From: a virus | DNA length: 33,264 nt | IMG/VR virus record: IMGVR_UViG_3300047276_000179 | Span: 1-33,264 of that record | Direction: 5' to 3' (one strand) | Part shown: positions 1,391-13,207 of the stretch, piece after piece | Layout of the letters: each line of letters opens with the position of its first letter | How positions within the stretch are numbered: the stretch's first letter is position 1 | The notes under the pieces: generated by a model | What the model was told of the DNA's origin: nothing | Seen by the model: only the letters and a program-made list of their open reading frames with translations | Database searches by the model: none | Program-made: the position numbers and the translations under genes

Positions 1391-1968
1391 TAGAAGTCTT
1401 CTACGTCCTCATCGGATTCAGGTTCAGCCACTTGCGACACATTGGGTTCACCAATCTTGAAACCCTTAGTTTGTCCAAAGAGCGCAGCCACTTCGGTTTC
1501 ATCTAGATCCCCGGCGTCCACACCAGCTGCTGATGCAACAGCAACGACCTGGATACCAACGAGCTTAAGTGTGGTTCCGTAGGTGACACCATCACGGAGG
1601 ATATAGGGCTTCTGCTTAAAAGCAAGCTTAACCTTTGAGCCACTGTAGAGGGGAGTGCCTGTGTCAGTAATAGGTGTTCCCTCAGTATCCACCACGGGCG
1701 GCTTGTTCTCTTCATTCCAGCTGAACTTGACTTTGTATTTACCTTCAGAGACCTCCTCCCAAGGCTCTGGCTTTAGTGTCGAGCGCTTTGGATTCTTGAG
1801 CTTTGACTCAGCCCACTTAATCGACTCGGCGCGATCTTCTTCTAGTTTGTTGACAAGATCGCTGTCTACCACTGCGGACAACGAGTAGCCAAACTTGCTT
1901 GGTTTCAGTACAGCCTGATAGCCCTCAAGGACAACAGGTTGTTGGGTAACGTGAATTGCTTGTGCCAT
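1390..1968 (-). CDS. Single-stranded DNA-binding protein (T7 gp2.5-like)
   Basis: Coats single-stranded DNA at the fork and recruits the polymerase and primase-helicase. The 192-aa product starts MAQAIHVTQ at an ATG overlapping the RNAP stop codon (TAATG). A second ATG six bases upstream is possible but would overlap the polymerase gene more. The OB-fold region is followed by a very acidic C-terminus ending ESDEDVEDF. An acidic tail with a terminal phenylalanine is the hallmark of gp2.5 proteins and mediates contacts with polymerase and helicase. Assignment rests on this tail, on length (T7 gp2.5 is 232 aa) and on position between RNAP and endonuclease I. Confidence 0.88.
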   Translation of the reverse strand: MAQAIHVTQQPVVLEGYQAVLKPSKFGYSLSAVVDSDLVNKLEEDRAESIKWAESKLKNPKRSTLKPEPWEEVSEGKYKVKFSWNEENKPPVVDTEGTPITDTGTPLYSGSKVKLAFKQKPYILRDGVTYGTTLKLVGIQVVAVASAAGVDAGDLDETEVAALFGQTKGFKIGEPNVSQVAEPESDEDVEDF

Positions 1969-4307
1969 TAACAAAAGAAATAGGTGGATTCAATCACGGA
2001 TTCTGGTTCCAGATCTCCGATGATCGGCGGTTCAGACTCTGCTCCAATTTGCTGAGCAAAGTCCTTGAGGTAATCGTGTTCTGCAAATAGGTGCATGTAT
2101 GTCTCGCGTACCATTGTGGACAGGTAAGACATATCAGTTGCCCGACACAGAACTGAATCGTGGATCAATGCAATAGGTGCATCAAACCGTAGGGTGGTCA
2201 AATGTAACAAGCTTGCATCTAGGCTGTGAATAAGATTTGGGCTAGTTGCATTCTTGTGGTGGTTGATGTCAACCTCATCCGTATCTCCGGTTGCTACCGA
2301 CATACGGCATTCGCCCAGAAGTTGCAAGGTGATTCGTTCAACTTGCTTCTTCATGAGTTTTTGATGGACGACAAACCCTGATGGGGTTGTCCAAGTCAGG
2401 TGGTCAGCGCCACGCTTAATGGCGTTAGCGACCTCATTTTCGATCCAACGCATCACTTTCATGGGGCCGGGAACAATACGCTCCATCGCCCCACGTACAG
2501 CTGTCACAACCTGGGTCAACTCATCCTTGTCAATCTCTATACCCGCCTCAGTGAATGCATCCCGAATGTAACCACGATTGCTGAACGGCTTTGCATTGTA
2601 AGGAACAGTCATGACGACCCGTTTGGTCTTCTTTCTGTCCATGTGTTCTTGTAGCCGTTCTGGGCAATTGGGTCGAGCTGCTTCAGCTACAACCTTGTAT
2701 GCATCCTGGGGCTTATCACTAGGTAAGACATTGACCAGCTTCGCTGTACTCTTGTCTCGTGCCAATCCTGCCAGGATCTGGAGTCCTGAACAGGTTGCAT
2801 CGGTTGCGACCATTAAGCCTGTGAACTGTCGATCAGCTGCGATCACGCAATGATAGAACTCATCGCAGGCACTTAAGAATTGCCACGGCTCTTCAGCTGC
2901 TTCCCATTCAGGTAATGATCCGATTGGGTCGGTAGCAACTTGCGTGATGAGTGTGAGGTTGTTCTCTGTCCACTCAAGACGCTCAGCCATCGTAGCTTTA
3001 TCTAGGCCGTAGCAAGTGGCTACCTGAAAGGCAAGCCAATCTTCTGCTTCAGGAGTCATGTACGACTCATCAGCAAAGCGTAAAAGTGATTTCCCAAAAT
3101 CCGTATCCTGAGGAGTCAGGAATGCAGGAATCGGGTAAGCTCTTCCACGGTAGTCAAATGACCACGGCAAAAAGAAACGGTCAACGTCCTTGAAACGTTG
3201 AACCGCTTCCATGGTCATCCGAGTGCGACAAGAGCGTTTGAACTCTTGTGCATTGCGATTCATCACCTCTGCTGCTCGTCTCCGATAGTCCTTACGACTT
3301 TCGTAGTTTGTGTCGATGTCAGCAGGTTTAGCAGGCAGATCGTGATGAACGATAGGTAGGAATTTACCGACTGAGCGTTCCAGTCTGATTAGCTCCTCAG
3401 CTACGCCCACAATGAAGGGGTTTAGCTTGAAGGCGACCTTCTGAATTTTGTTCAGGAAGGAGAGCGGTATTTCCCCCTGTATACATGACGGATCGCCTCG
3501 TCGAACCAAGTCATGGCCTCGCATTACCTCATTGAGCAGGTAGCCACCAGGCCGGTCGTTCGTCCAATCATTGGGCTCAATCAGCATCGGCCATGCCAGC
3601 GGAGCGAAGAGCTCTGAGTCCTTGATTACTTGCTCCTTGATCTCAAGGAACTCTGGTGTTGGCACGATGTAATTGACTCGCTTGCGGCCCTCTTGTTTCA
3701 TCAGCCGCGTGAACCAATTGCTGCTGCTGATAATGCAATCCAATAGCCAGCCACCCAGCTTTACGCGATTGGCACGACCCCAGGTCTCCCATGGTTTGAC
3801 TTCGTACCGATTCATCAAGGTACGAATGATCACCAGTTTCTGGTGTGTGCCACAGGATCGGTGCCAGTAGTTCTTCTTCAGGGTCTCCAGTAGACCTGGC
3901 GCTTCACGTTCGTAGTGGCGCATCTGACATTCCGCTTCGACGGCTGAACCGATCGCATCACACACTTCGGTGACCTGATCGCTGCCTTCCTTGACGCTGA
4001 ACACCTTGTCAAAGGTGATCTTCAAGGCAATCGCAGCCGCTGCTAGGGGTTCGACATCAGCTAGGTACTGCCGGATTTCCTTGAACGAGGCCCCGACCTT
4101 GCCCTCATGAATCCGATTGGTTGTGTCTTCAATCCGTGACACAAGCTTCGGAAGCAGGGCATCAATGGAGGCCACTCCGTAAACCGTAGCCGATGCGTAG
4201 CTCTGCTGCTCCAGCTTTTGTGTGTTTTCTTTAAGCCGCTTCAGGCCTTGCCTGATCTGTTCGCGCTCAAGCTCGACTTGTTTTTCGATCTGGGCAGGCG
4301 TTGGCAT
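1968..4307 (-). CDS. Phage single-subunit RNA polymerase (T7 gp1-like)
   Basis: DNA-directed RNA polymerase that transcribes the phage genes from phage-specific promoters. At 779 aa it is about 100 aa shorter than T7 RNAP, mainly in the N-terminal domain. Motif A is ATDATCSGLQILAGL near residue 500, with a catalytic aspartate. Motif B is KRVVMTVPYNAKPF near 566, with the catalytic lysine and the sugar-selecting tyrosine. Motif C is LIHDSVL near 716, with the second catalytic aspartate. The C-terminus YFFC resembles the aromatic FAFA foot of T7 RNAP. No good Shine-Dalgarno precedes the ATG. A strong terminator upstream isolates the gene from the integrase operon, and a degenerate copy of the proposed phage promoter lies between them. 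The gene contains one copy of a 24-bp repeat and a full promoter-like motif near its 3' end. Confidence 0.97.
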   Translation of the reverse strand: MPTPAQIEKQVELEREQIRQGLKRLKENTQKLEQQSYASATVYGVASIDALLPKLVSRIEDTTNRIHEGKVGASFKEIRQYLADVEPLAAAAIALKITFDKVFSVKEGSDQVTEVCDAIGSAVEAECQMRHYEREAPGLLETLKKNYWHRSCGTHQKLVIIRTLMNRYEVKPWETWGRANRVKLGGWLLDCIISSSNWFTRLMKQEGRKRVNYIVPTPEFLEIKEQVIKDSELFAPLAWPMLIEPNDWTNDRPGGYLLNEVMRGHDLVRRGDPSCIQGEIPLSFLNKIQKVAFKLNPFIVGVAEELIRLERSVGKFLPIVHHDLPAKPADIDTNYESRKDYRRRAAEVMNRNAQEFKRSCRTRMTMEAVQRFKDVDRFFLPWSFDYRGRAYPIPAFLTPQDTDFGKSLLRFADESYMTPEAEDWLAFQVATCYGLDKATMAERLEWTENNLTLITQVATDPIGSLPEWEAAEEPWQFLSACDEFYHCVIAADRQFTGLMVATDATCSGLQILAGLARDKSTAKLVNVLPSDKPQDAYKVVAEAARPNCPERLQEHMDRKKTKRVVMTVPYNAKPFSNRGYIRDAFTEAGIEIDKDELTQVVTAVRGAMERIVPGPMKVMRWIENEVANAIKRGADHLTWTTPSGFVVHQKLMKKQVERITLQLLGECRMSVATGDTDEVDINHHKNATSPNLIHSLDASLLHLTTLRFDAPIALIHDSVLCRATDMSYLSTMVRETYMHLFAEHDYLKDFAQQIGAESEPPIIGDLEPESVIESTYFFC
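2109..2122 (-). promoter_or_regulatory. Putative phage promoter motif, upstream of SSB operon
   Basis: Minus-strand TGTCCACAATGGTA, an exact match to the repeated TGTCCACNNNGGTW motif, preceded by TTACC. It lies inside the 3' end of the RNAP gene, about 140 bases before the SSB start. A promoter here would drive SSB, endonuclease and primase-helicase. The same bases encode part of RNAP (STMV). Confidence 0.55.
3472..3495 (+). repeat. 24-bp direct repeat, copy 1 (inside RNAP gene)
   Basis: A 24-base sequence with core GTATACATGACGG is identical to bases 10914-10937. The match ends sharply on both sides. Here it codes for part of the polymerase (around DPSCIQGE), so this copy looks like the source. 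Confidence 0.9.
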
Positions 4308-4364
4308 AGGCGATGAGTGTGAAGAATTGAGACAAGACTGTTACTAGATTCAGCGTCTTGGTGA

Positions 4365-4378
4365 TACGGATATGGACA
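4365..4378 (-). promoter_or_regulatory. Degenerate promoter-like motif upstream of RNAP
   Basis: Minus-strand TGTCCATATCCGTA preceded by CTACC. It differs from TGTCCACNNNGGTW at two fixed positions but shares the ACCTGTCCA left half with the copies at 2109, 15246 and 25056. It lies 58 bases before the RNAP ATG and after the terminator, where an RNAP promoter would be expected. It could instead be a relic or chance match. Confidence 0.35.
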
Positions 4379-4390
4379 GGTAGATGCTGC

Positions 4391-4415
4391 AATAAAAATG
4401 GGGGATCTCTCCCCC
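4391..4415 (-). terminator. Rho-independent terminator after integrase/attP
   Basis: On the minus strand a perfect 6-bp GGGGGA/TCCCCC stem closes a GAGA (GNRA) tetraloop and is followed by ATTTTTATT. It ends the MarR-integrase transcript about 85 bases before the RNAP start, so the polymerase needs read-through or its own promoter. Confidence 0.85.
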
Positions 4416-4448
4416 ACGTATACGTTTAATGAACAGGACTTGAACTCA

Positions 4449-4489
4449 GATTTTGAGTCGAGTCCGTCTACCAATTCCGGCACGCTCCC
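4449..4489 (-). other. Putative attP core: 5' half of a tRNA-Leu(CAA) gene
   Basis: These 41 minus-strand bases fold as the 5' half of a leucine tRNA. They comprise acceptor strand GGGAGCG, linker TG, D-stem CCG/CGG around loop GAATTGGTAGA, anticodon-stem strand CTCGA, loop CTCAAAA (anticodon CAA) and the first two bases of the 3' strand. The tRNA pattern then breaks: no paired anticodon strand, variable arm or acceptor 3' strand follows. It is therefore not a functional tRNA. A roughly 42-bp match to a host tRNA-Leu just downstream of the integrase gene is the described attP arrangement in the Prochlorococcus podovirus P-SSP7. The position, 80 bases after the integrase stop, is the same here. 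Confidence 0.75.
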
Positions 4490-4503
4490 AAGGGATTCCA
4501 ACA

Positions 4504-4521
4504 ATTCTCAGTCTTGAGAAT
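4504..4521 (-). other. 7-bp inverted repeat beside attP
   Basis: ATTCTCA and TGAGAAT form a perfect stem around a 4-base loop, between the integrase stop and the tRNA-Leu half-gene. No T-run follows, so a terminator is unlikely. It may be an accessory binding site of the recombination site, or a processing hairpin. Confidence 0.45.
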
Positions 4522-4571
4522 AGCCCTCGGAATCATGGTAGCAGGGGAAATGGCAGCTGCTCTAGACGGAC

Positions 4572-5510
4572 CTAGATAGCGTTCGCGCAGTTGACAACAG
4601 CCGCTTGTGTGTTATGGATGTAGCGCTCGGTGGTCTTCACATTGCTGTGTCCCATCGTTTGCTTCACGTGCATAACGGATGTACCGGCTGCGATTTGCCA
4701 CGTGCCGTAGCTGTGACGCAAGGTGTGGAAGACATGACCTCGGGTGATGGTCGGGTCTTCGTACATCAAGAACTCACGCACTCGGTTGAAGTCACGTGAG
4801 ACTTTCTGGCGGTTGTACCAGTAGTCACCAAACACCAGATCATTGGGACGGGCACCATCCAAAAGGCGGTGAACCATTGGCATCAGACGGTCGTTGAGAC
4901 CGACTTGTCTGTAGTTACCAGTTTTGGTGCGTGTTTCAGGGGTACCACCCACATGAATCTGTGGTTGTTCCAGCCTGAAATCAAAGTCCCAAGCCCTTAG
5001 CTTTCTCAGTTCTCCTTGCCTGAGTCCAGTGTAGGCAGCAAACAAAACTAAATCAGCTAACTCATCGCGTCCATGATCTCTAGCGATCTGGCAGTAATGA
5101 TCGACCTGTTGTTGTGTATACCATTCTGTGCGTCCTTCCGGTGTACTGTACCGAAGGATGACAGGCATCGTGTCAACAAGGTGATGTCTCAATAAGCACT
5201 TGAATGTCGTGCTGATTGTCGACAAGAACTTGTTAGCACTGTTCTCTGACCACTCAAGATCATCTTTGATGTCTTCAGTGATGTCTTTGATCATCTTGGT
5301 ATCCATGAACTTGAGAGGGACTGCCTCTCCGTCCATGTGTTCCTTGAGCTGTCGATGGTGCCTGCGCACATTGTCAGCTTGTGTGCTGCCTTCTCGTTTG
5401 AGGGACCACACGGGATGATTGTGACAAGCAAACTCAAAGGCTTGATCAAAGTTCTTGATCGTTGCCTTGACTGGTTTCCTGTCCAGATAACTCTGGAGCT
5501 TGGTCGCCAT
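4572..5510 (-). CDS. int: Tyrosine-family site-specific integrase
   Basis: Catalyses recombination between phage attP and host attB. The 312-aa protein has an N-terminal SAM-like DNA-binding region and a C-terminal catalytic domain with the full active-site set: R164 (TGLRQGEL), K196, H262 and R265 (HTLRHS), H288 (MGHSN) and nucleophile Y297 (TERYIH). I chose the ATG at 5510 because GAGGAG lies about 8 bases upstream. An in-frame TTG at 5525 is the alternative. It overlaps the MarR-like gene by 65 bases, so the two are co-transcribed. The tRNA-Leu half-gene lies just downstream. The gene appears intact, so integration is plausible, although lysogeny is not proven for this phage group. Confidence 0.96.
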   Translation of the reverse strand: MATKLQSYLDRKPVKATIKNFDQAFEFACHNHPVWSLKREGSTQADNVRRHHRQLKEHMDGEAVPLKFMDTKMIKDITEDIKDDLEWSENSANKFLSTISTTFKCLLRHHLVDTMPVILRYSTPEGRTEWYTQQQVDHYCQIARDHGRDELADLVLFAAYTGLRQGELRKLRAWDFDFRLEQPQIHVGGTPETRTKTGNYRQVGLNDRLMPMVHRLLDGARPNDLVFGDYWYNRQKVSRDFNRVREFLMYEDPTITRGHVFHTLRHSYGTWQIAAGTSVMHVKQTMGHSNVKTTERYIHNTQAAVVNCANAI

Positions 5511-5856
5511 AGAGAATCTCCTCAATCTGTTGGATCAGGGCCTTGCCTTTAGGCGTGAGCCGTAGCTGTTGTCTTCGTTTATTCGATGGGTCTTGCTCCT
5601 TGATGATGAGATCAAGCCCTGGCTTATTAACCCAGGACTGATCCGTGAGCTTGTCTGTGCACCTACTGCCAGCAGCGGTGGTGAGATTGAGTTCTTCCTC
5701 CACCGCTTGCTTGTGGCAGTTGTCGTGAGCGGCTACATAGAAAAATGTGGCCAGCACCTGGGCAGGTACCTCACGATCAAGCAGACGCAACAGGTTCATC
5801 ATCCGCTGGACCCGCTCCATCTGGGGATTGGTAACCGTTCGACGAAGTGGGTCCAT
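5446..5856 (-). CDS. MarR-like winged-helix transcriptional regulator
   Basis: A 136-aa DNA-binding protein. Helices around residues 20-45 (dimerisation region) are followed by a helix-turn-helix in HKQAVEEELNLTTAAGSRCTDKL and a beta-wing ending DPSNKRRQQLRLTPKGKAL. The D..NKRR..LxLTPKG signature is typical of MarR proteins. It is co-transcribed with, and overlaps, the integrase gene. It therefore probably controls the integration module or early genes, by inference from position. The start ATG has no strong Shine-Dalgarno, and ATG codons inside the first 20 residues are alternatives. A copy of the promoter-like motif lies 37 bases upstream. Confidence 0.82.
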   Translation of the reverse strand: MDPLRRTVTNPQMERVQRMMNLLRLLDREVPAQVLATFFYVAAHDNCHKQAVEEELNLTTAAGSRCTDKLTDQSWVNKPGLDLIIKEQDPSNKRRQQLRLTPKGKALIQQIEEILYGDQAPELSGQETSQGNDQEL

Positions 5857-5892
5857 TGGTCCGTGGTGAGCAGTCCCACTCTAGTCTAAGCC

Positions 5893-5906
5893 TACCGATG
5901 TGGACA
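5893..5906 (-). promoter_or_regulatory. Putative phage promoter motif, upstream of MarR-integrase
   Basis: Minus-strand TGTCCACATCGGTA, an exact match to TGTCCACNNNGGTW. It lies in the 105-base gap between the early gene ending at 5962 and the MarR-like gene, 37 bases before the MarR ATG. TTGTCCACA here is also one base from a bacterial DnaA box, an alternative reading. Confidence 0.55.
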
Positions 5907-5961
5907 AGTACATCCGTGAATGATTCCTTATCCATCCCTAGGTAGAAATTTCGGAAGCTGA

Positions 5962-6111
5962 TCAATTGCAAAGCTGTGAAGCGTCTACAAGTACAAGCGT
6001 ATCATCCAAGAGCTGTTCTTGGGCTAATTGTAGCAATTCAGTTTTATGCGGATGTTGCATAACTTCCTCGATCAGCTGCGAAAGACGGCGGTTAAATGTC
6101 TGCTCAGTCAT
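5962..6111 (-). CDS. Small hypothetical early protein (49 aa)
   Basis: MTEQTFNRRLSQLIEEV begins a 49-aa predicted helical protein of unknown function. The ATG at 6111 overlaps the end of the 105-aa gene by 8 bases, which supports it as part of the early operon. It is the last early gene before the MarR-integrase module. No domain is recognised. Confidence 0.62.
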   Translation of the reverse strand: MTEQTFNRRLSQLIEEVMQHPHKTELLQLAQEQLLDDTLVLVDASQLCN

Positions 6112-6421
6112 CAATAATGTCGGCTGGAGTGATGTGATGGATAGACTCGTGATCTACAACGGTGAACTCGATATCAGGTGTATGCAGGAGTTGATTAACC
6201 TTGTTCTGGGCTGCGCTTTGCTTGGAGTAGACATGTTCTTTGACCTTCTTGGTCTGCATGTCCGTGACCCGGATTACGCAACACACAGAGCTGGGTAGCT
6301 CCCACCCGGCAACCTTCCAAGACATGACCTCCTCAAATGTATGGGGAATGAAGTCGTTGTCATCAGCTTGGTAGTACTCTTGCCAGTTATTTGGGAAGTA
6401 ATCTTTACGTTTACCACTCAT
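6104..6421 (-). CDS. Hypothetical early protein (105 aa)
   Basis: A 105-aa soluble protein, MSGKRKDYFPNNWQEYYQ at the start, with a basic first few residues and an acidic remainder (ending TPADIIDD). The region VCCVIRVTDMQTKKVKEHVYSK looks like a pair of beta-strands with a basic turn. No family is recognised. It overlaps the upstream 47-aa gene by 11 bases and the downstream 49-aa gene by 8 bases, so it sits in a tightly coupled operon. Confidence 0.72.
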   Translation of the reverse strand: MSGKRKDYFPNNWQEYYQADDNDFIPHTFEEVMSWKVAGWELPSSVCCVIRVTDMQTKKVKEHVYSKQSAAQNKVNQLLHTPDIEFTVVDHESIHHITPADIIDD

Positions 6422-10950: not shown

Positions 10951-12702
10951 TCAGGAACTGGAGTTTACCCATACAGGTGTAGAGGATCTTTGTGTCTTTC
11001 CTCTAGCCTGTCTACGCTGGTCAATATTGAACCCCAACACAAGGTGATTAGTCGCTGATTGAGGGTCGTCAATAAAGGTCTCAAGCATGTCTTGCCAGTC
11101 TTCTTGCTTACGTTGCTTGACAGCTTCATAGGCGCTAATACCCATAGCATCTGTGAAGTACTTAACCCCTTGAGCTAAGCTATCCAATCTGTCGTCATGT
11201 TTAACTGCACCCTTTTCACGACACATACGACTCATCTGGTAGAAGAGCATGTATAGGAGTCGTTCTTCAGGTGCTGCGTCTTTATTGGAGTGGTAGTCCC
11301 ATTCGATGACGCTGCGATCAACGATGAGCTTGTGTTGGTTCATGATGGGCTCTAAAGCATCAATGATCCGGTCTTCTTTACGGACATTGGCTCGTACCTC
11401 TTCTACGTCTATGGCTTGCTTGGTTTGTTGGAGGTGCTTCTTAAACAGTTCTGCGACGATACCGTCTCCGAAGTTTGTTTCGATGAGTAGTTTAGTAACA
11501 TTGTACCGCTTACACCCACGCAAGATGTCAAGAAGTGTACTGTCGCTATAACCGTCGCGATAAGCTCGTACTTCGTGAACGTAGAGAAAGCCATTCTTTT
11601 GTGAGATGTATGTAGCTGCTGTTTCGTCAGTACCACGACCACTGGGGTCTACTGAGCAGATCGTTTCTGTGTATGGACTCCAGTCGCCTTGGAGCTGCAT
11701 CGGGGAGTAGAAGTAATCACCCGGTAGGCCAACCGTAGGCAGATCCTTGAGGCAATTACGAGGGTCACTGCACCACACAACAGCATCCGGCGCTTGAGTC
11801 GGATTAACAGAGGTAATGACGAGATCGGAAAACTTAAGCGGGAATTTCTCTGCATCGCTCAGTGTTGTGTCGAGTTGGAACTGCAACATGAAGTTGCTAC
11901 GACCCATAGCTGCTTCCCGTTCCAGCAGGTCATCACTGGAGAAGCGATCTGAGTCGGTAGGGGACCACTCCTCCACTCCCATCTCAATGTCTTCCACGAT
12001 CTGTGGAGCAAGAAGCCCTTCGTATTGGGAGAGCTTGTCTTTACGTGGGTAACGGGATGGCCAGACAAATGGACGATAGTTACGTTCCGCTAGCTTTCGG
12101 TAGACAGTGAAGGTAGTCTGTGGAGTGCCAAGGTACATAATGCGCGAGTCCTTCTTCGGCGTAAGGATGGACTCCGCTTCTGTACACAGCTGCAAAAGCT
12201 TCTCTCGCATAAGCTCGGTCATGCTGTTGCCTGGAACCTCAATGTCGTCCAGAATCATTAGGTCTGCACGAGAACCAGTCAGCTGACCTGTAATACCTAC
12301 AGACTTGACTGAGGGTGCCTGGTGAGGACTGCAGTTCACGTCAAAGGAGATACGACTCCAACGACTGTCATCACTTTTAGGCCTTAAGTGAACTAGCCAA
12401 GGTGTCTCAATGATTAGCTTCTGCAGGAAGATGGACATGTTGTCTGCCCGCTCCTTGGAAGCCGAGATGATCATGATCTTCTTCTCAGGATCATTGAACA
12501 ATGTCCACAGCACAAAGGCACCAGTAATCCAGCTCTTACCAACTCCTCGGAAGGCTTGGATCTGTAGTCGCTTAGGTCCGTGTTGCAGATAATCAGCAAT
12601 CGCGTACTGTGCCCTTGTTGGAGAAGGTAGATCTAGTTGATGCCACAGAGCTTGAAGGAATAACTTAAAGTCACCCTGGAGAGACTTGAGAACGTCTTGC
12701 AT
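10951..12702 (-). CDS. Terminase large subunit (T7 gp19-like DNA maturase B)
   Basis: ATP-driven packaging motor and nuclease that cuts concatemers. The 583-aa length equals T7 gp19 (586 aa). Walker A is FRGVGKS near residues 51-57, and the block IISASKERADN follows as in T7. SVKSVGITGQLTGSRADLMILDDIE gives Walker B. CSVDPSGRGTDET carries the nuclease aspartate, followed by FRDGYSD-like and SNFGDG-like blocks (YRDGYSD, TNFGDGI) and HDDRLDSLAQG. I chose the ATG at 12702 because T7 homology (LQGDFKLFL) begins there; a longer in-frame start would be buried in the upstream gene. It overlaps the sulfotransferase-like gene by 32 bases. Confidence 0.97.
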   Translation of the reverse strand: MQDVLKSLQGDFKLFLQALWHQLDLPSPTRAQYAIADYLQHGPKRLQIQAFRGVGKSWITGAFVLWTLFNDPEKKIMIISASKERADNMSIFLQKLIIETPWLVHLRPKSDDSRWSRISFDVNCSPHQAPSVKSVGITGQLTGSRADLMILDDIEVPGNSMTELMREKLLQLCTEAESILTPKKDSRIMYLGTPQTTFTVYRKLAERNYRPFVWPSRYPRKDKLSQYEGLLAPQIVEDIEMGVEEWSPTDSDRFSSDDLLEREAAMGRSNFMLQFQLDTTLSDAEKFPLKFSDLVITSVNPTQAPDAVVWCSDPRNCLKDLPTVGLPGDYFYSPMQLQGDWSPYTETICSVDPSGRGTDETAATYISQKNGFLYVHEVRAYRDGYSDSTLLDILRGCKRYNVTKLLIETNFGDGIVAELFKKHLQQTKQAIDVEEVRANVRKEDRIIDALEPIMNQHKLIVDRSVIEWDYHSNKDAAPEERLLYMLFYQMSRMCREKGAVKHDDRLDSLAQGVKYFTDAMGISAYEAVKQRKQEDWQDMLETFIDDPQSATNHLVLGFNIDQRRQARGKTQRSSTPVWVNSSS

Positions 12703-13207
12703 AATATTCAGAGATACATTGAAAGTTATCGGACCAATACTTAGGGCCACGTGGAATGTCAGACTTCCACTGCTTAACGGTGAAGTGGCTTCTGTCTTCC
12801 ACAAAGAGACGATGTGACTTTAAAGAGGCATAAGGCAGCAGTAATACCTGTTGTGGCAAATAATTTGTTAGTTGTTCAATTAGTTGGAAGCGATTATCAA
12901 CATAGTCGTTTAAGAACTGTTCCCAGTCTTGGACGTTATCTTTGCACCAGAGAATACGCTTCATGCTTTGGATGATGTCACCCTTGTCCCGCGTCACAAC
13001 AATAAACTGTGAGTATGGATAGATGTGATGAAGCATGACATAGCCGTCTAAAGCTCCAGGTAGGTGAATCACGCAGTCCCTGTAGTCGTTACCGGGGACA
13101 AACTCAGCCTCATCAATAAAAGTAAGATTGTTATCTGTAGCAGTGATAATAGATGCAATTGTTGTACCGCTTCTCTGAGAGCCTGTAACAAAGGTTGGTG
13201 GAGCCAT
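12671..13207 (-). CDS. Sulfotransferase-like protein (putative)
   Basis: A 178-aa protein with a P-loop-like start, TGSQRSGTT at residues 8-16, matching the 5'-phosphosulfate-binding loop (xxPRSGTT) of PAPS-dependent sulfotransferases. A second segment, IVVTRDKGDIIQSM at 69-82, matches the 3'-phosphate site pattern (R73, S81). The usual fold is 250-300 aa, so this is a compact or truncated member. If active it would transfer sulfate from PAPS to a sugar, lipid or protein, perhaps modifying host surface or virion. It lies directly after a strong terminator and overlaps terL, an odd place for an accessory gene. Confidence 0.7.
   Translation of the reverse strand: MAPPTFVTGSQRSGTTIASIITATDNNLTFIDEAEFVPGNDYRDCVIHLPGALDGYVMLHHIYPYSQFIVVTRDKGDIIQSMKRILWCKDNVQDWEQFLNDYVDNRFQLIEQLTNYLPQQVLLLPYASLKSHRLFVEDRSHFTVKQWKSDIPRGPKYWSDNFQCISEYYARRSQVSPG

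Follow-up and report, generated by a model that had tools for sequence, protein, structure and literature searches.

What is half of a tRNA gene doing in a viral genome? The IMG/VR virus record IMGVR_UViG_3300047276_000179, analyzed over all of its 33,264 nucleotides (hereafter the window), carries on the minus strand at positions 4449–4489 the sequence GGGAGCGTGCCGGAATTGGTAGACGGACTCGACTCAAAATC, originally predicted to be the 5′ half of a leucine tRNA captured as a phage attachment site (attP), next to an integrase gene (int) and a MarR-like regulator gene (marR). The attP reading is correct, sites of this kind have been published before, and the phage is one more in that class. We assign the 41 bases with high confidence to the integration module of a T7-like cyanophage, ordered marR-int-attP and predicted to integrate into tRNA-Leu(CAA). 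Two parts are undescribed: a cassette in which the tRNA half lies between a putative promoter and a terminator, and a prophage bearing the full set of T7-like genes, located in a sequenced picocyanobacterial genome termed G281. With moderate confidence, we further propose that attP acts as an expression cassette, that an integrating phage exchanges the host promoter of this tRNA gene, present there in a single copy, for one of its own and shields phage genes from the host one, and that at least some such phages persist as complete prophages.

The 41 bases are identical to nucleotides 1–41 of picocyanobacterial tRNA-Leu(CAA), the genes of which match the window throughout this length. Exact copies were found in 111 of 120 retrieved genome loci, in 151 of 400 family genomes of a separate draw (a single copy per genome in the rows listed), and in 19 other viral contigs. 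A host scan with the pattern GGNAATTGG, which contains one extra base, gave no matches, and the host counts rest on the corrected pattern. On sequence grounds, an exact 41-base match within 33 kb is not chance. The core begins at tRNA nucleotide 1, preserves the host D-stem pair C10–G25, and stops after ...AAAATC, past which host genes read gagcgcc...ggttcgagtcccaccgctccc and go on to complete the tRNA with its usual variable arm, T arm, and acceptor. The window instead reads TGAGTTC and has no such continuation. Neither ARAGORN nor Rfam called a complete tRNA at the locus or in the window. A T-arm-like TTCAAGTCC directly after the core was rejected as a decayed tRNA 3′ half and is treated as chance, because it is absent from the other relatives listed and no tRNA is called. 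Full tRNA-Leu matches in many IMG/VR contigs were set aside as ordinary phage or host tRNAs. The 5′ half is indeed an unusual choice: in Islander, 5′ fragments of tRNA genes are a minority, with 159 of 3919 islands (PMC4383910).

On the minus strand, marR is followed by int, an 82-bp leader, the tRNA half, a predicted terminator, and an RNA polymerase (RNAP) gene (Table 1). The core thus adjoins the integrase stop as predicted, at a distance of 82 rather than 80 bases. All six integrase residues named in the original prediction (R164, K196, H262, R265, H288, and Y297) were confirmed by alignment and are invariant across 11 cyanophage integrases. The regulator also holds up, by its match to PHROG 9665 (transcriptional regulator) and its alignment with P-SSP7 pMarR and the S-CBP1 and S-CBP3 regulators; Pfam gives just a weak, below-cutoff winged helix-turn-helix model. 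As a possible dedicated lytic repressor, the window offers beside int only this MarR-type protein. The genome is T7-like, with an RNAP identified by PF00940 and terminase, tail, and core open reading frames (ORFs) homologous to those of relatives. The T7-like cyanophage integration modules grouped by Shitrit et al. are recognized, among other features, by a sequence immediately after int that perfectly matches at least 39 bp of the first half of a tRNA-Leu gene from picocyanobacteria; the window combines a 41-bp match at this place with the R-K-H-R-H-Y integrase and the T7-like genome.

With the 5′ half on the phage side, integration would send the promoter of the host tRNA, together with the original 5′ half, to the left junction (attL). 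Host tRNA-Leu(CAA) genes display TAnnnT at −15 or −14 before nucleotide 1 (91 and 16 hits, respectively, in 118 upstream sequences), and a crossover in the anticodon arm would strand this promoter at attL, with phage DNA alone upstream of the tRNA at the right junction (attR). In the mechanism that we propose, the integrase would recombine the circularized phage genome into host tRNA-Leu(CAA) in the anticodon arm. At attL, the host promoter and original 5′ half would point into the phage and be halted by the terminator behind the core, whereas at attR the phage 5′ half would be joined to the host 3′ half, restoring a complete tRNA-Leu. When the window attP was recombined in silico with a host attachment site (attB), attR held a complete tRNA-Leu(CAA), whereas attL held no complete tRNA. 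The rebuilt tRNA would be transcribed from phage DNA, by read-through from int and, most likely, from an extended −10 element in the leader. A phage that uses the 5′ half would have to provide a promoter anew for a tRNA essential to the host, and a conserved −10 element and terminator suggest that it does so. Both the integration of this particular phage and an active promoter at the −10 element are what we infer from sequence.

The cassette was analyzed in viral contigs with CAA, CAG, and UAA cores and in isolates, together 191 core occurrences dereplicated to 51 loci. An int ORF ends just upstream of the core in 169 of the 191 occurrences; none contained a complete tRNA by T-arm pattern, and one contig (L142) was afterwards recognized as a junction. 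The extended −10 element TGnTAnnnT is present between int and core, on the tRNA-reading strand, in 46 of the 51 attP loci, compared with a mean of 3.0 (maximum 8) after shuffling and with 0 of 51 on the opposite strand. None of the other five-base patterns with that spacing, 1024 in all, is as common in the 51 leaders as this element, which occurs in 4% of random segments of the same length from the same loci, and is rarer than chance over the whole 33-kb window (42 versus 75 expected). In the P-SSP7 leader it reads TGTTATAAT. A terminator lies no more than 120 nt past the core in 43 of 51 relatives (shuffle mean 6.1). Leader hairpins of at least 6 bp were detected in 15 of 51 relatives versus 2.7 in shuffles; a conserved leader hairpin was nevertheless rejected as a universal feature, given its restriction to these 15 and its absence from P-SSP7 and P-SSP3. 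The promoter–half–terminator cassette is a previously undescribed arrangement with strong sequence statistics and a predicted function, in which the phages appear to supply their own promoter for the restored tRNA.

Natural attL and attR products of sister phages were observed directly. The contig L142 (IMG/VR 3300034198_030546, 4339 bp) is an assembled attL junction at tRNA-Leu(CAG). Its host side contains tRNA-Leu(CAA), murA, and the tRNA-Leu(CAG) leader, the switch to phage DNA falls where the tRNA-Leu(CAG) half ends, and the phage side continues with a phage terminator, followed by SSB, endonuclease, and primase genes; it is colinear with picocyanobacterial genomes up to the core and with free phages from the core onward. 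An attR junction was identified on G363:C25, where trpA, a complete tRNA-Leu(UAA), int, marR, talC, and a terminase gene (product 82% identical to the window terminase) follow one another in a partial prophage that continues past the contig end. Both prophage ends are contained in the 52-kb contig G281:C12. Here, attL at 48124 comprises murA, the host leader, and the tRNA half, and attR at 2526–2610 is a complete tRNA-Leu(CAG), a second copy of which was not found in the G281 genome. The 45.5-kb prophage between them (2611–48124; L407, L413, L414) harbors genes for RNAP, integrase, ThyX, terminase, tail, core, capsid, portal, scaffold, DNA polymerase, primase, endonuclease, and SSB. With this anatomy recurring in relatives, with sister-phage junctions at hand and the type already published (PMC8776855), the attP reading of the original prediction is sustained. 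As a separate observation, tRNA-Leu(CAA) and tRNA-Leu(CAG), both of them phage attB sites, flank murA in many hosts at a distance of ~1.5 kb from each other.

Allele differences locate the crossover in G281. The D-loop allele GGAATCTGG is shared by the free relatives L426 and L427 and the G281 attR, whereas the host allele GGAATTGG is found at the G281 attL, which puts the crossover in the anticodon arm, past the D loop on its 3′ side and no farther than about nucleotide 40. Moreover, the leader −10 element of the free phage L426, which carries a joined attP, reads TGCTATGTT at −45 and matches TGCTATATT at −45 in the G281 attR. From the D-loop allele and the leader match together, the 5′ half, leader, and −10 element at this attR are phage-type. 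Most G281 genes covered by the partial L426 and L427 contigs align over their full length at 81–98% identity, the exceptions being genes cut by contig ends. The IMG/VR record UViG_2716884610_000003, which derives from an IMG genome, is identical to the G281:C12 contig over the 2985 bases compared. No MarR gene lies beside int in this prophage; a weak ribbon-helix-helix (RHH_5) candidate regulator was detected at L407:8159–8491. A displaced tRNA-Leu(CAG) 3′ fragment (L418, G281:C79:83–139) was also noted beside the usual host downstream gene, which suggests that a second element used the 3′ half of the gene while the phage occupied the 5′ half, the two lying in tandem.

Several observations weigh against the proposed cassette and integration site. 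A strict sigma-70 scan of 4300–6300 found no −35/−10 pair, and the promoter claim hence draws solely on the extended −10 statistics. The spacing of the −10 element to the tRNA ranges from −28 to about −121 among relatives, and the 51 loci, although dereplicated, are phylogenetically non-independent. The search for attL/attR junctions advocated alongside the original prediction succeeded in contigs and genomes for sister phages, but found none involving the window phage or a tRNA-Leu(CAA) site, L142, G281, and G363 all being CAG or UAA cases; likewise, no integrase homologue, and hence no prophage at the CAA site, was found within the 120 host tRNA-Leu(CAA) loci. Alternatively, the −10 element may be a binding site of the integrase or a phage signal of another type. 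We grant a small chance to the reading of TGnTAnnnT as an arm-type or accessory DNA-binding site of the integrase rather than a promoter, since the element lies within attP, is strand-specific and conserved, and integrases bind arm sites near the core. Yet its fixed positions are only those typical of an extended −10 (TG, T-A, final T) with variable inner bases, its distance from the core is variable by tens of bases, and it is common to integrases of only 25–35% identity. That the element drives the downstream RNAP gene and not the restored tRNA is unlikely: the window and many relatives do have RNAP after attP and in the same orientation, but a terminator intervenes in most phages, and the element is also present where RNAP is located upstream of int and SSB follows attP (S-TIP28, SS120-1, G281).

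Other explanations concern the tRNA half itself. The cassette might mainly yield a short (~137 nt) phage RNA with the tRNA-Leu 5′ half during lytic infection, acting as a regulator or decoy, with integration being secondary. The layout does predict an RNA of leader, half tRNA, and terminator (minimum free energy −49 kcal/mol, z −2.9), and the half is flanked by a conserved promoter element and terminator; we nonetheless judge this very unlikely, as the end of the half invariably falls in one crossover region of the anticodon arm, as its sequence corresponds to the tRNA-Leu that serves as attB, and as attP deletion in S-TIP37 abolishes integration (PMC8776855). It is also very unlikely that the tRNA half is a relic, left by a previous integration or an imprecise excision event, with the module defunct in the window phage. 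Such a relic would fit the lytic behavior of T7-like cyanophages and the lack of stable S-TIP37 lysogens (PMC8776855), but the 41 bases are exact although the flanking DNA is just ~76% identical to S-CBP3, the integrase active site is intact, relatives have been shown to integrate, and natural junctions exist. An attP with its own promoter and terminator remains our preferred interpretation. If it is true, the complete prophage of G281:C12 implies that not every phage of the group integrates without lysogeny. With both its junctions, this prophage is a concrete case against the view of solely transient T7-like cyanophage integration, and a place to seek what keeps such a prophage silent. It is possible that G281 represents a cell caught during transient integration, and stable inheritance of the prophage is not implied; a stable prophage of the window phage itself was not found.

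Table 1 Features of the integration module in the window
Feature	Position	Strand	Basis
Tyrosine integrase, 312 aa from ATG (listed ORF starts at TTG 5525)	4572..5510	−	PF00589, E 4e-21; phrog_1, E 1e-38
MarR-type transcriptional regulator, overlaps int	5446..5856	−	phrog_9665, E 3e-47
Extended −10 TGCTACAAT, candidate marR-int promoter	6027..6035	−	pattern match alone
Extended −10 promoter element TGCTACCAT, reads into tRNA half	4535..4543	−	pattern match; promoter activity predicted
7-bp inverted repeat ATTCTCA-AGAC-TGAGAAT in leader; RNA hairpin or integrase-binding repeat	4504..4521	−	
attP core, nucleotides 1–41 of tRNA-Leu(CAA), 5′ half through anticodon loop	4449..4489	−	exact host and viral matches
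Intrinsic terminator directly after tRNA half, before RNAP gene	4398..4417	−	predicted
T7-like RNA polymerase, downstream of attP and terminator	1968..4307	−	PF00940, E 1e-64

Outside the module, an ORF with a sulfotransferase-like GSQRSGTT start (window 12671–13207) adjoins the terminase gene. Among other phages, the identical 41-bp tRNA-Leu(CAA) core was encountered at the same position in a distant podovirus clade (L130, L132, L137; RNAP ~24% and integrase ~23% identical). Four host-genome contigs (L381, L382, L383, L386) carry integrases followed by 5′ halves that resemble other tRNAs (Leu(UAA)-like and CAT-anticodon types), along with a distant T7-like RNAP, and S-CBP42 (L206) carries an integrase without a recognizable tRNA half downstream.

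How does the module relate to known systems? Shitrit et al. 2021 described T7-like cyanophage attP sites that perfectly match the first half of tRNA-Leu, and showed attP-mediated integration in culture without stable lysogeny, including integration of P-SSP7 and its loss in S-TIP37 upon deletion of int or attP (PMC8776855). The P-SSP7 attP/tRNA-Leu match goes back to Sullivan 2005, as cited in that work (PMC8776855), which does not discuss transcription of the split tRNA. P-SSP7, S-TIP37, and the four attP groups of Shitrit et al. share with the window a T7-like genome, the succession of int and tRNA-Leu first half, and often a MarR-type gene upstream of int; the difference is that the window is a new phage. 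The P-SSP7 MarR homologue has been reported to activate the host rne promoter (PMC9692554). Islands with 5′ fragments in Islander likewise combine a tyrosine integrase with a tRNA gene that is split and restored and a displaced 5′ fragment, and the part of that account at hand does not mention the consequence for the promoter (PMC4383910). In LUZ100-type T7-like Pseudomonas phages, the MarR-like regulator and int are co-transcribed, transcription mostly terminates after int, and a T7-like RNAP lies downstream (PMC10134795); these phages carry a whole tRNA-Leu upstream of int, whereas the window carries a half after it. The closest isolate is the Synechococcus phage S-CBP3 (Lirvirus), with the same 41-bp core, the order marR-int-attP-(RNAP), and an integrase 84% identical, differing by a DNA identity of about 76% across the module. 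S-CBP1, in contrast, has a MarR protein 87% identical to that of the window, an integrase of only 32% identity, and a tRNA-Leu(CAG) 5′ half as core, and its DNA match to the window spans marR and stops at about the int start. This combination suggests that int and attP are exchanged jointly as a target-switching block, apparently by recombination at the marR/int border that switched the target tRNA between the window phage and S-CBP1.
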